From Gemmatimonadaceae bacterium (GTDB taxonomy: Bacteria > Gemmatimonadota > Gemmatimonadetes > Gemmatimonadales > Gemmatimonadaceae): a DNA stretch of 64,000 nt. The stretch is taken from assembly GCA_016742275.1 (NCBI GenBank), contig JACVCD010000009.1, forward strand, positions 1-64,000, read 5' to 3'. Positions within the stretch are counted from its first letter, which is position 1; each line of letters starts with the position of its first letter. The notes below the pieces were generated by a model, which was given only the letters and a program-made list of their open reading frames with translations, had not been told where the DNA came from and did no database searches. The position numbers and the translations under genes are program-made. This document shows, one piece after another, positions 1 to 60,675 of this stretch.

Positions 1-735
1 GCCTTGCACCGGTGTGACCTGTGGACTGGCAGCGAGCAGTGCGGTTGTTGCGGCGAGTATGGCATCGCTCACAGCATGCGCATCCCATGGTCGCACATCG
101 AGTGTCGCACATCGTGCGCGCGCTTCGGCGATGGTCATGCCGGCGCGTATACCGAACCGTCCAGCGGCCAGCGAAACCACTTTAAGTGTGGTGTCGATAC
201 TGAGTGCGCGTGGGACGGTGTCCCAGTGTCGCAACTCAGGCGGACGTAGGGCGCGGTTTTCGCCCGAACGTGGACTCTGCCGCGCGCCGCCGCCCGCGGT
301 ACGTGGTCCAGTCGCGGACACCACTTTGCTCCCGCCGTTCGATGCGGTGTTCGCTCCAGCGATCGAGGCCGCCGCTGATGCAGTTGGGGACTCTGCTACT
401 CGTCTGCTCCGCGCGGTCGCGGTCGCGGTTGATGCTGCGATCGGCGTTGGGCGCGTGACGGTCGGATAGCGGGAGCGTGATCCTGTCGCCGGGCTCGGTG
501 TCGAGTCGGGCAGCAATTCGAGCTGGATGTCCCGGAATGTTAGTTCCGTACAAGTCGTGGCCGGCGACTCCAAGTCCGCCCCAGGTGACGGGATGTTCTC
601 CGGTGTCTTGGGTGTGTGGTTGCTGGTCGGTGCTGTTTCCGCGCGCGACCCAGGCACGACGCGCGCTTCGCGCCACGCCGCGCCGATCGGGAATCTCGGA
701 ATTCGCACACATGCGACGCGCCATGACGATGACAC
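1..735 (-). CDS. imuB: ImuB, Y-family polymerase-like mutagenesis protein (N-terminal part, runs off the window)
   Basis: Read on the minus strand from a GTG at 735. The first strand (RVACVRIPRFPIG) and the later block with SLAAGRFGIRAGMTIAEARARC match the ImuB N-terminus, where Y-family polymerases have their palm and fingers. ImuB has lost polymerase catalytic residues and works with ImuA and the error-prone polymerase DnaE2 in damage-induced mutagenesis. Between the two blocks lie about 140 residues rich in Ser, Thr, Pro, Ala and Gly, which the family normally lacks. The GTG lies where the conserved part of ImuA ends, and the two genes overlap by about 500 bases in different frames. An in-frame ATG at 813 is a possible earlier start. 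No stop occurs before base 1. Identity is fairly sure; the exact start is not. Confidence 0.72.
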   Translation of the reverse strand, partial: MSSSWRVACVRIPRFPIGAAWREARVVPGSRAETAPTSNHTPKTPENIPSPGADLESPATTCTELTFRDIQLELLPDSTPSPATGSRSRYPTVTRPTPIAASTATATARSRRVAESPTASAAASIAGANTASNGGSKVVSATGPRTAGGGARQSPRSGENRALRPPELRHWDTVPRALSIDTTLKVVSLAAGRFGIRAGMTIAEARARCATLDVRPWDAHAVSDAILAATTALLAASPQVTPVQG

Positions 736-1414
736 GGTCCACCTCGATGGTCTGATGAGGAATGCCGGTGCCGCCCTTCTCGACGGTGATCCGGATGCGA
801 GGAGAAGTCGCATGGGTTGTCGCTACGCGCAGGCGCAACGTGCCGGCCAGACGACCGCGCCCCGTGTTGGTGCCGGTATGAACGAGGCCATGTTCGAGTA
901 CCACGCAGGCCGCATCCCGCTCGCGAGCCAACTGTGCGAGTCGCACACCATGCACACGCGAGAGCGCAGGGGCGCCATCGAGCACCACGAGCCCGAACAC
1001 CCCACTGCGCAGCAACAGATCGGCGGTCCACGCCGCGCGATGCCGTTTCTCGTGCGGCAGGCGAATGACCACCAATCGTGAGCCCATGCCGGTGAGGGCG
1101 GCCGGTGCCAACGTACGCGAGGCATCGATCCAGGCCACCCAACTGCCGGTGCGCAGCACCGCTTCGGCCACTCGTCGCAGCAATGCGGTTTTGCCCACGG
1201 CCAGCGCACCGGTGATCTCAGTGACCCGACCACGCGGAATGCCACCACTCAGGGCTTTGTCGAGCGCCCGGATACCGGTGGCCCAGGGCGCACTTGCTGC
1301 CCGGCCTCCTGCCACCACCGCCTGCACCTTGGCCACCACAGCAGCCGGTACCGGGGCCGGTGCGCGATGGGTCGAGGTGAAAGACGGAGTGGAGGAGGCC
1401 GGAAGTGCGCTCAT
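236..1414 (-). CDS. imuA: ImuA, RecA-like SOS mutagenesis protein with long out-of-frame overlap
   Basis: A RecA-fold ATPase relative with a P-loop-like GALAVGKT at about residues 69-76, after the family lead-in GIRALDKALSGGIPRGRVTEI. ImuA recruits ImuB and DnaE2 to stalled replication. ATG at 1414 is chosen. It lies inside the predicted -10 box, so the real start may be downstream, for example a GTG near residue 26. The RecA-like part ends near base 735. The frame then stays open for about 166 Arg/Ser-rich residues that overlap imuB and look non-native. At 392 residues it is longer than usual for the family (roughly 230-280). Either a true long overlap or an indel near 735-780 could explain this. 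The next gene upstream on the same strand is a radical SAM gene sharing the same operator. Confidence 0.72.
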   Translation of the reverse strand: MSALPASSTPSFTSTHRAPAPVPAAVVAKVQAVVAGGRAASAPWATGIRALDKALSGGIPRGRVTEITGALAVGKTALLRRVAEAVLRTGSWVAWIDASRTLAPAALTGMGSRLVVIRLPHEKRHRAAWTADLLLRSGVFGLVVLDGAPALSRVHGVRLAQLARERDAACVVLEHGLVHTGTNTGRGRLAGTLRLRVATTHATSPRIRITVEKGGTGIPHQTIEVDRVIVMARRMCANSEIPDRRGVARSARRAWVARGNSTDQQPHTQDTGEHPVTWGGLGVAGHDLYGTNIPGHPARIAARLDTEPGDRITLPLSDRHAPNADRSINRDRDRAEQTSSRVPNCISGGLDRWSEHRIERREQSGVRDWTTYRGRRRAAESTFGRKPRPTSA

Positions 1415-1440
1415 GATACCAAACAAAAACCGAAAGTCAA
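1413..1440 (-). promoter_or_regulatory. imuA promoter with direct-repeat operator
   Basis: On the minus strand: -35 TTGACT (1435-1440), 16-bp spacer, -10 TATCAT (1413-1418). The spacer (1419-1434) is a TTCGG-N6-TTTGG direct repeat. The same element abuts the -10 box of the genes starting at 2513 and 60623. This is probably a damage-responsive operator (LexA-like by analogy). The promoter call is by eye. Confidence 0.6.
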
Positions 1441-1475
1441 CAGGTGAAAGAAACCGCCGAGTGGCGGTTGCAGGT

Positions 1476-2513
1476 CTAGCCGAACAGATTGAGTTGATTG
1501 GTGGATATGTGTAGTTCAGTATTTATTTCTTGAATCTCTTCGCGCTCATTTTCATCATACCCATAAACACGGAATCGCAAGCCATTGCGGTCACACAACT
1601 TCTGCATCGCATCCCGGAGACCGGTGCGATAACTCTCGCGGGCATACGCGCTATCGCGGTACGTGGACTCATACCGCGAAGCCAGAGCAGGGAACTGCTC
1701 GCGGATCACCGGCAGATACCGCCGCCGCGAGGCCGCCCGAAGCCTGAGAGCACAGGCCCCGAGACTTTGTGCACCTGTTTCCGCCACCTGCTGCACCAGA
1801 GCCGACAGCTGCTCCGGTGCATCGGTGATACCCGGCAGAATGGGCATGCAGTTCACACTCACTTCCACCCCCGACTCGGCCAGTCGCCGTATGCCACGCA
1901 GGCGGGCCTGTGGAGTGGGAGCCCGTGGCTCGATGCGCCGCGCCAATTCGTGATCCACCGTAATCAGCGAGACATGCACGGCCATCCGATTGTGCTCGGC
2001 CAGCCGCTGCAACAACGGAATGTCCCGCGTGACCAACGGACTTTTGGTGATGATCACGATGGAGAGTTCGCGGACCACGCCCAGTGCCTGGAGCACGTCG
2101 CGGGTAACACCAAATCGGCGCTCGGCGGGCTGGTAGGGATCGGTAGCCGATCCAATGACCAGTGAGTCGCCGGGCTTGGGCGACCGCGAGGAGCGCAGTG
2201 CCTCACGCACCCGCGCCCCGGCGTGTTCCTTGACCAGTACACGTCGCTCAAAGGCCTGCCAGGGGGGCAACGATGCCGCAACAGCTTCCCCAATGGGACC
2301 GGCCCGTTCGAGTGTGTAGCGATGCGTGTCGCGGGCATAGCAGTACGCACAGCCAAACGCGCAGCCCACATAGGGATTGATGGACCAGAACCCCATGTGC
2401 GTGGCCGACGGGGGATTGAAAATCCCTCCGCCGGGAGCCGCGTGGTACTGCAGGTCCGCCTGAGTGGTCAGCGGACGGAGCGGTACCGGGAGAACCGGGA
2501 GCGCGTACGTCAT
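1476..2513 (-). CDS. Radical SAM protein, Rv2578c/PA0069 family (spore-photoproduct-lyase-like)
   Basis: A 345-residue protein with the cluster-binding motif CAFGCAYC (C51, C55, C58), which holds a [4Fe-4S] cluster that cleaves S-adenosylmethionine. The HMGFWSINPYVGC lead-in and the later KSPLVTRDIPLLQRL block are typical of the Rv2578c/PA0069 group, distant relatives of spore photoproduct lyase. The substrate is unknown in the family. Its context is informative: it lies just upstream of imuA-imuB on the same strand, and its own promoter carries the same direct-repeat operator. This suggests a DNA-lesion repair role, which is my inference. There is no Shine-Dalgarno sequence before the ATG; the predicted -10 box places transcription start at the ATG, so the mRNA is probably leaderless. 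Confidence 0.85.
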   Translation of the reverse strand: MTYALPVLPVPLRPLTTQADLQYHAAPGGGIFNPPSATHMGFWSINPYVGCAFGCAYCYARDTHRYTLERAGPIGEAVAASLPPWQAFERRVLVKEHAGARVREALRSSRSPKPGDSLVIGSATDPYQPAERRFGVTRDVLQALGVVRELSIVIITKSPLVTRDIPLLQRLAEHNRMAVHVSLITVDHELARRIEPRAPTPQARLRGIRRLAESGVEVSVNCMPILPGITDAPEQLSALVQQVAETGAQSLGACALRLRAASRRRYLPVIREQFPALASRYESTYRDSAYARESYRTGLRDAMQKLCDRNGLRFRVYGYDENEREEIQEINTELHISTNQLNLFG

Positions 2514-2518
2514 GCCTG

Positions 2519-2547
2519 ACGCTACCGAACAAAATCCGAAGCTGCAA
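2519..2547 (-). promoter_or_regulatory. Promoter with direct-repeat operator for the radical SAM gene
   Basis: Minus strand: -35 TTGCAG (2542-2547), 17-bp spacer, -10 TAGCGT (2519-2524). The direct repeat TTCGG-N6-TTCGG occupies 2525-2540 and touches the -10 box, exactly as upstream of imuA. Predicted transcription start falls at or near the ATG at 2513. Confidence 0.55.
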
Positions 2548-2934: not shown

Positions 2935-3276
2935 CTATACAGCGAACATGGCCTGCAGAATGCCGAGGACTTTCGTCATGGTCGCACTGGTGAGTGCTCC
3001 CAATCGCTTGCCGAGTCGTTCGTCATCAACGGTGCGAATCTGGTCAAGGATGACATGCCCGTCCTTGCCTCCAAAGCGACACGCCACGCGAAACGGGTAC
3101 GGATGACTGCCACTCGTCAGGGGGGCGACGATAAACGTGCCCATATGAGTATTCAGCTCATCTGGTGATACAACAACACAAGGTCTCGTCTTGCGGATTT
3201 CGCGTCCGCGCGTCGGATTCAGGGTGACAAGGAATACATCCCCCCGTCGGACTGTCGCGCTACTCACCACGTCCAT
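2935..3276 (-). CDS. mazF: MazF/PemK-family toxin (endoribonuclease)
   Basis: A 113-residue protein with MazF hallmarks: RRGDVFLVTLNPTRGREIRKTRPCVVVS at the N-terminus, then FIVAPLTSG and DQIRTVD in the second half. MazF toxins cleave mRNA or tRNA at short sequences when freed from the antitoxin. The start overlaps the end of the upstream antitoxin gene by 13 bases, the usual translational coupling of a type II toxin-antitoxin operon. The key Arg of the RP dipeptide and the downstream Asp-Gln are present, so it looks intact. Confidence 0.92.
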   Translation of the reverse strand: MDVVSSATVRRGDVFLVTLNPTRGREIRKTRPCVVVSPDELNTHMGTFIVAPLTSGSHPYPFRVACRFGGKDGHVILDQIRTVDDERLGKRLGALTSATMTKVLGILQAMFAV

Positions 3277-59345: not shown

Positions 59346-60623
59346 CTACCGGAATGTCCCCGGGCTGAACTCGAACACGTCATTTCGCATGCCAAGTGTC
59401 TGGGCTTCTTCCACGTCCCACAGGGACAGCTGTTCCTTCCAGCGTTCAGCACCCAGGCGCTTGCCCTTCCACGCCAGAAATCCCTGAGCCCGGGTGATGG
59501 CCACGCCCAGCTTCTGTAAATCCGACAGTCCGCGCACTGTAGATGCGCGACGTTGCTCCACCAGCCGACGCGCGCTCAAGGGACCGATACCCGGCACACG
59601 GAGCAGAGCACTGTACGATGCTGTGAAGGCGTCCAGTGGAAATTGCTCCGGATGAGCCAGCGCCCACGCGACTTTGGGGTCATGGGCCAGCGGCAGATTT
59701 CCATCGGCGCCAAACACCAGCTCTTCGTAGGCGAATCGATAGTCTCGCAGGAGATGGTCGGCCTGATACAGACGATGCTCACGCAGCGGCGGTGCACCCC
59801 GCGCATTTTCGAGCGGGGTGTCGCGAATGGGGCGGAATGCGCTGAAGTGCGTGTGGTGCACGCCGCCGGCCGCGTAGAGTTCGACGGTCTTTCCCATGAT
59901 GGTGTGATCGGTGTCCGGTGTTGCTCCGACCACGAACTGCGTGGTGAGACCAGCCGCACCCTGCGGAAGCAACGCATCACGCGGGCGTCCTTCACGTTCT
60001 TCGGCGCGCCCTTCCACCACACGCTGTTGAGCGCGACGCAGTGCCACGAGCGTCGTCTCGATGCGTTTCTCCGGTGCAATGGCCGTGAGCGAGTCTCCGC
60101 ACGGTGCTTCGAGATTGACGGACACCCGATTGGCCAGCGCTGTGATGCGATCCACCTGCGCCGTTTCTGCGCCGGGCACGATCTTGACGTGGATGTAACC
60201 ACGAAATGCATGACGTTCGCGAAGCAGCTCAAGCACAGTGATCAAGTCATCCATGACCTTCACGGGATGGGCCGGAATACCCGTGGTGATGAACAATCCA
60301 CTGGCCCAACCGCGTGCCAATACGTGCAGAAATATCCGAACCATTTCCTGCGGCTTGAGCAGCGTGCGCGGCAATTCACGATCGCGACGCATGGGACAAT
60401 AGTGGCAATTGAAACTGCAGGCATTGGTCATGAGGATGCGAAACAACTTGGCCTTGGGGCCCGATGAACCAACGCGCACATCGCGCAGGTTGAATGGGCG
60501 CAGTGCGCCGGCCTTTCGCATGTTGCGCAGCCGCGGCGGGAGCACCACATCGCTTCCCGGGCGGCCTTCGTGATCGTCGGCCGCGAGACTCATCAGAATG
60601 TCGAGTTTTGTTTCGGTATCCAT
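59346..60623 (-). CDS. Putative DNA modification/repair radical SAM protein (TIGR03916-like)
   Basis: A 425-residue radical SAM enzyme. The cluster motif is CSFNCHYC (C69, C73, C76). The C-terminus has a helix-hairpin-helix (LLRVPGIGPLSARRLVEQRRASTV), as expected for DNA binding. In other genomes this family sits beside a uracil-DNA-glycosylase-like gene (TIGR03914); no such gene is in this window. ATG at 60623 has GGAG upstream. The promoter carries the same direct repeat as imuA. A role in repairing damaged DNA is likely but the reaction is unknown. Confidence 0.87.
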   Translation of the reverse strand: MDTETKLDILMSLAADDHEGRPGSDVVLPPRLRNMRKAGALRPFNLRDVRVGSSGPKAKLFRILMTNACSFNCHYCPMRRDRELPRTLLKPQEMVRIFLHVLARGWASGLFITTGIPAHPVKVMDDLITVLELLRERHAFRGYIHVKIVPGAETAQVDRITALANRVSVNLEAPCGDSLTAIAPEKRIETTLVALRRAQQRVVEGRAEEREGRPRDALLPQGAAGLTTQFVVGATPDTDHTIMGKTVELYAAGGVHHTHFSAFRPIRDTPLENARGAPPLREHRLYQADHLLRDYRFAYEELVFGADGNLPLAHDPKVAWALAHPEQFPLDAFTASYSALLRVPGIGPLSARRLVEQRRASTVRGLSDLQKLGVAITRAQGFLAWKGKRLGAERWKEQLSLWDVEEAQTLGMRNDVFEFSPGTFR

Positions 60624-60647: not shown

Positions 60648-60675
60648 ATAATACCGAAGAAACACCGAAATTAAA
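60648..60675 (-). promoter_or_regulatory. Promoter with direct-repeat operator for the DNA-repair radical SAM gene
   Basis: Minus strand: -35 TTTAAT (60670-60675), 16-bp spacer, -10 TATTAT (60648-60653). TTCGG-N6-TTCGG occupies 60654-60669 and abuts the -10 box, with the same layout as imuA and the gene at 2513. Confidence 0.6.

Follow-up and report, generated by a model that had tools for sequence, protein, structure and literature searches.

A direct repeat in front of a radical SAM gene and imuA: the very probable LexA operator of Gemmatimonadota

The window, by which we mean the whole 64-kb stretch of DNA analysed here, belongs to a 4.57-Mb assembly of 33 contigs. A radical SAM gene and imuA stand in tandem near its start on the minus strand, with imuA downstream, and each is preceded by a copy of one direct repeat; a third copy precedes a second radical SAM gene.

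2542-2547, minus strand: -35 element of the radical SAM promoter, TTGCAG (from the sequence; kept in relatives)
2525-2540, minus strand: LexA-type box of the radical SAM gene, TTCGGATTTTGTTCGG, a perfect TTYGG-N6-TTYGG
2519-2524, minus strand: -10 element of the radical SAM promoter, TAGCGT (from the sequence and the promoter-context match)
1476-2513, minus strand: Rv2578c/PA0069-type radical SAM protein, 345 aa, with a CX3CX2C motif (NF038135, PF04055)
1435-1440, minus strand: -35 element of the imuA promoter, TTGACT (from the sequence)
1419-1434, minus strand: LexA-type box of imuA, TTCGGTTTTTGTTTGG, a perfect TTYGG-N6-TTYGG
1413-1418, minus strand: -10 element of the imuA promoter, TATCAT (from the sequence)
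236-1414, minus strand: imuA, RecA-like (PF00154, NF033429)
60654-60669, minus strand: third box, TTCGGTGTTTCTTCGG, followed by a -10-like TATTAT at 60648-60653 (motif scan of the window)
59346-60623, minus strand: second radical SAM gene (TIGR03916, UDG-linked putative DNA repair family; 303.7 bits, cut-off 343.5)

A sequence-only reading of this DNA had placed TTCGG-N6-TTYGG on the minus strand before the two tandem genes, and both positions proved exact. It had also paired each copy with a -10 box (TATCAT, TAGCGT) and a TTG-type -35 box 16-17 bp away. Both promoters agree with this description and the motif fills the spacer: the 16-bp spacer of the imuA promoter is the box itself, and the 17-bp spacer between TTGCAG and TAGCGT of the radical SAM promoter contains it. 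The composite pattern TTG-N4-box-TANNNT fits the radical SAM site with zero mismatches, and likewise the sites in most relatives scanned. The same reading spoke of a shared operator, which is accurate for the motif, the same at both genes, and not for the site, as there are two separate copies, one per gene. Across the window the motif has three matches where 0.23 are expected, and none of 100 shuffles reached three.

The ATG of the radical SAM gene (2513) lies 5 nt past the -10 element, as does the ATG of dnaE2 elsewhere in the genome, a distance that suggests leaderless mRNAs for both genes. The first imuA ATG (1414) overlaps the -10 element, so translation probably starts at a downstream GTG; imuA tblastn matches in relatives often start at residue 24-31. 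The overlap at imuA (1412-1418) and the ATG spacing at the radical SAM gene (2513-2524) are likely to reflect either leaderless transcripts or mis-set starts.

The first radical SAM protein scores 209.6 bits (E 5.7e-62) against NF038135 (rSAM_Rv2578c) and 191.9 bits against NF033668, below the respective curated cut-offs of 430 and 360, and 61.7 bits against PF04055. It is clearly related to the Rv2578c/PA0069 families and is not an equivalog by the NCBIfam cut-off; its closest named relatives come from Gemmatimonadetes/Gemmatimonadaceae, and on that basis we assign the window to Gemmatimonadaceae. A PDB sequence search with this protein returned nothing significant, whereas comparison of folds did find a match: among solved folds, that of spore photoproduct lyase comes nearest to the predicted structure of mean pLDDT 87.5 (VIA-align Z 20.3, against 16.4 for the next other family; Foldseek E 3e-9). 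Solved spore photoproduct lyase has a further conserved catalytic cysteine beyond the cluster, Cys140. The only invariant cysteines in our alignment of 41 homologues are those of the CX3CX2C cluster (C51, C55 and C58), position 140 not being mapped residue by residue. It is reasonable to suppose that the enzyme, as modelled, acts in the repair of DNA lesions.

The imuA product matches PF00154 at 42.8 bits and the ImuA family NF033429 at 50.6 bits (E 2e-13), below the cut-off of 150. Gene order supports the name: G020, a finished genome, has its radical SAM, imuA, imuB and dnaE2 frames head to tail behind one perfect box. The second radical SAM gene has its own box at 60654-60669. Among 40 relatives, only one genome (G039, 63% identity) holds a strong match to this gene, and that match is boxed too (L235). 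Directly downstream of it in the window we saw no UDG partner; PadR-like and ABC-permease-like genes stand there. At 2935-3276 on the minus strand the window also encodes a MazF/PemK-type toxin, and a probable antitoxin ORF immediately precedes that gene on this strand.

The sequence-only reading had proposed a search of the full genome for the motif, and the outcome is divided. The bare 10-base motif is barely above its control (19 matches against 10 for the reversed control, about twofold), and roughly half of the matches may have arisen by chance; copies do lie at SOS genes. As the count is so near the control it is weak evidence, and the weight rests on placement and conservation. Six of the 19 perfect matches precede genes expected in an SOS regulon, namely the radical SAM gene, imuA, dnaE2, lexA (two copies) and the second radical SAM gene. 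Indeed, the three genes singled out for inspection all carry the motif: lexA has two boxes upstream, dnaE2 one perfect box (TTCGGCTTTTGTTCGG-TATATT) and recA one box with a single mismatch (TTCGTACTTTATTCGG). The dnaE2 copy lies on contig C29, which opens with an imuB-like gene, followed by a gene matching NF007413, which we take to be YedK-like, the box and dnaE2. Contig C19 has the end of imuA at its start and C29 opens with the imuB-like gene, so these ends probably adjoin each other in the genome. The LexA of this genome scores 208.3 bits in a profile search against TIGR00498 (cut-off 110.95) and is of the canonical self-cleaving type, with an Ala-Gly cleavage site and a Ser/Lys dyad visible in its sequence.

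The motif is kept upstream of orthologues across the class, as the comparison of related genomes was meant to reveal. Radical SAM orthologues have a perfect TTYGG-N6-TTYGG upstream in 14 of 15 same-family genomes (shuffle mean 0.03), a count that includes four loci (L035-L038) without an imuA match in the fetched stretch. The -35/-10 context of this box is conserved in relatives, and 58.7 kb of same-family loci contain boxes nowhere except ahead of the radical SAM gene and in the sequence that runs from its end into imuA; a perfect box separates the two genes at 9 of 11 such loci. Two other families (f2 and f3) have no box within 160 nt of the radical SAM gene. Their box is more distant, upstream of a small zinc-ribbon ORF that intervenes, and precedes the pair of zinc-ribbon ORF and radical SAM gene at 13 of the 14 loci where the ORF was recognised. 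This ORF (L039-L052), located between box and radical SAM gene, has 40-60 residues, ends in CP[DE]CG-x6-SGC-x2-C-x2-CGW-x-RCG and matches no Pfam family at its cut-off. In some order-level genomes the radical SAM gene has its upstream box in reverse orientation.

At lexA, two boxes are found in almost every genome examined, across seven families of the class. At least two boxes, with at most one mismatch, precede lexA in 30 of 30 same-family genomes; at least two were also found in 20 of 21 further genomes of the family and in 18 of 20 genomes from two other families of the order. Families f4-f7 have two, with one exception that has one, and family f8 has one. The second lexA copies lie downstream of the -10 element and lack promoter elements. 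At recA, the same one-mismatch box recurs in 22 of 22 same-genus genomes and is perfect in 8 of 8 order-level genomes. A box precedes dnaE2 in 19 of 30 relatives.

Beyond the class, the box changes by one base. Within 300 nt upstream of radical SAM orthologues, TTCGG-N6-TTCGG occurs in 31 of 33 named Gemmatimonadota and the TTCGC form in none, whereas of the 43 orthologues outside this phylum, most of them from Acidobacteriota, 34 have TTCGC-N6-TTCGC and none has TTCGG (shuffles about 0.03). Relative to the gene that they precede, these TTCGC boxes are reversed. The lexA genes of the same other-phyla genomes have the TTCGC form in 24 of 29 cases, and so do 5 of 5 lexA loci of family f9, which belongs to a second class of Gemmatimonadota.

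The LexA proteins differ in step with the box. The recognition helix reads SLATVH-E-HL where boxes are TTCGG and SLATVH-K-HL where they are TTCGC: glutamate goes with TTCGG at 66 of 66 lexA loci, one of which also has a mixed-type copy, and lysine with TTCGC at 29 of 33, with no perfect box at the remaining four. From the Acidobacteriota-type and same-family genomes we had predicted lysine for f9 and glutamate for f2-f8 before the LexA genes were read, and the prediction agreed in 20 of 20 cases. In our alignment, this position corresponds to E. coli LexA Glu45, which is among the listed DNA-contacting residues (PMC3091678). A pairing of glutamate with cytosine, and of lysine with guanine, on the complementary strand would be chemically fitting. 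On the LexA tree, the glutamate group needs one change. As this amounts to about one evolutionary event, the correlation has little independent replication and is suggestive, not replicated.

Taken together, these data indicate that the motif, TTCGG-N6-TTCGG repeated directly with a period of 11 bp between -35 and -10, is very probably this Gemmatimonadota lineage's LexA operator, or SOS box. The regulator had been proposed at the outset by inference, and the boxes at lexA, recA and dnaE2, with their conservation, lend that proposal strong support. LexA is by far the likeliest regulator, since practically all genomes examined have boxes at lexA itself: the copies in this genome and in nearly all relatives are what autoregulation would predict. 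Core SOS genes would belong to the same regulon, with perfect copies at imuA and dnaE2 and a recA copy that has one mismatch in the genus and is perfect in order-level relatives. Against a LexA operator count the absence of the box at dnaE2 in 11 of 30 relatives and at imuA in 2 of 11 loci, and the imperfect recA site of this genus. In G020 these genes run in tandem after the box of the radical SAM gene, so an operon could explain some of the missing boxes.

The position of the box in the promoter spacer would also suit a DNA-damage regulator other than LexA, for instance a WYL activator of the PafBC type, as PafBC-type elements act between -35 and -10. We consider this very unlikely: the genome has no WYL-domain protein at E <= 0.001, while the same search was positive in 7 of 14 control genomes, two boxes stand at lexA itself across the class, and the box base changes in step with a residue of the LexA recognition helix. 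Repeats embedded in promoters at a fixed distance from -35 and -10 might also form part of the promoter, as an alternative sigma-factor element. Such an element is hard to reconcile with second lexA copies that lie beyond the -10 without promoter elements of their own, with the reverse-oriented radical SAM boxes of other phyla and of some order-level genomes, or with the box-bearing genes being SOS genes, and we regard it as highly improbable. Chance matches, or relics of a local duplication, would account for the two tandem-gene copies in a genome where about half of all matches could be fortuitous; retention at 14 of 15 and 9 of 11 same-family loci, including genera in which no imuA was found beside the radical SAM gene, renders this explanation extremely improbable.

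On the LexA reading, a LexA dimer would bind the box so that each of its DNA-binding domains contacts one half-site, both from one face of the DNA and a helical turn apart, and would keep RNA polymerase from the promoter. DNA damage would activate RecA and trigger LexA self-cleavage, and the radical SAM enzyme, ImuA (with ImuB and DnaE2), RecA and LexA would be derepressed jointly. We infer binding, repression and damage induction from sequence. Its box would thereby place the radical SAM enzyme in the SOS response.

The alphaproteobacterial LexA box, GTTC-N7-GTTC, is among the closest known parallels. The boxes of Caulobacter and its relatives share with ours the 11-bp-period direct repeat, a TTC in each half-site and the targets imuA-imuB-dnaE2, recA and lexA. 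The sequence-only reading had matched the 11-nt period to this box, and the geometry and the shared TTC bear it out; identity does not extend to the half-site, which is GTTC there and TTCGG (or TTCGC) in Gemmatimonadota, another phylum. GTTC-N7-GTTC occurs in neither promoter box of the window (1419-1434, 2525-2540), and the present lineage differs further in its recognition helix, SLATVHEHL, and in having two tandem boxes at lexA as a rule. The Gram-positive box, CGAAC-N4-GTTCG, has a half-site, GTTCG, that resembles TTCGG, but it is a palindrome and not a direct repeat. Seventeen LexA motifs have been reported (PMC8565304), with direct repeats among them (PMC8565304, PMC7739468). One of these, the Balneolaeota repeat TTACACATATTTTWTACATA, demonstrated by gel shift, is unrelated to the Gemmatimonadota box in half-site sequence and phylum (PMC7739468).

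The damage-repair hint that the shared box gave for the radical SAM family had precedents in several phyla. SplB-type radical SAM proteins (COG1533) and the UDG-COG4277 system are described as SOS-regulated for Bacteroidetes, Gram-positives and Balneolaeota (PMC8565304, PMC7739468). In Streptomyces venezuelae, the listed LexA targets include a radical SAM gene (PMC9380542). As SOS control of such proteins had been reported (PMC8565304, PMC7739468), the hint is a confirmation, not a discovery. The likeness lies in a radical SAM repair-like protein under probable SOS control, with a second, UDG-linked radical SAM gene also boxed here; the operator differs, and no UDG partner was seen directly downstream of that second gene. 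The open literature that we searched yielded no description of a Gemmatimonadota or Acidobacteriota LexA motif. The box would thus provide an SOS operator for a phylum without a LexA motif in that literature, and its damage regulon would become readable from sequence. It would also link an enzyme with a predicted spore-photoproduct-lyase-like fold to DNA damage in several phyla at once. Rv2578c of M. tuberculosis and PA0069 of P. aeruginosa probably belong to the respective LexA regulons, a point not used as evidence here.

More broadly, we think it rather likely that one LexA operator architecture, TTCG(G/C)-N6-TTCG(G/C), extends across Gemmatimonadota, Acidobacteriota and several other phyla, with the last half-site base set by the residue at the Glu45 position (glutamate for TTCGG, lysine for TTCGC). 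If true, a specificity switch of one residue and one base pair would have arisen naturally in LexA, and the Glu/Lys pairing would offer a directly testable account of why the DNA motif of this repressor varies, a peculiarity that has been remarked on. S24/LexA paralogues, tried as independent tests of the rule, were set aside; their helices are of other types and therefore have no bearing on it. Four loci (L366, L367, L370 and L375) encode a divergent LexA-like S24 protein with the helix KSTKTVS and have no TTCGG direct-repeat box upstream. Genome G123 (L374) encodes an additional LexA with the helix SSSTVHAHL and the palindrome CGAACACATGTTCG upstream, resembling the Gram-positive LexA and its box.
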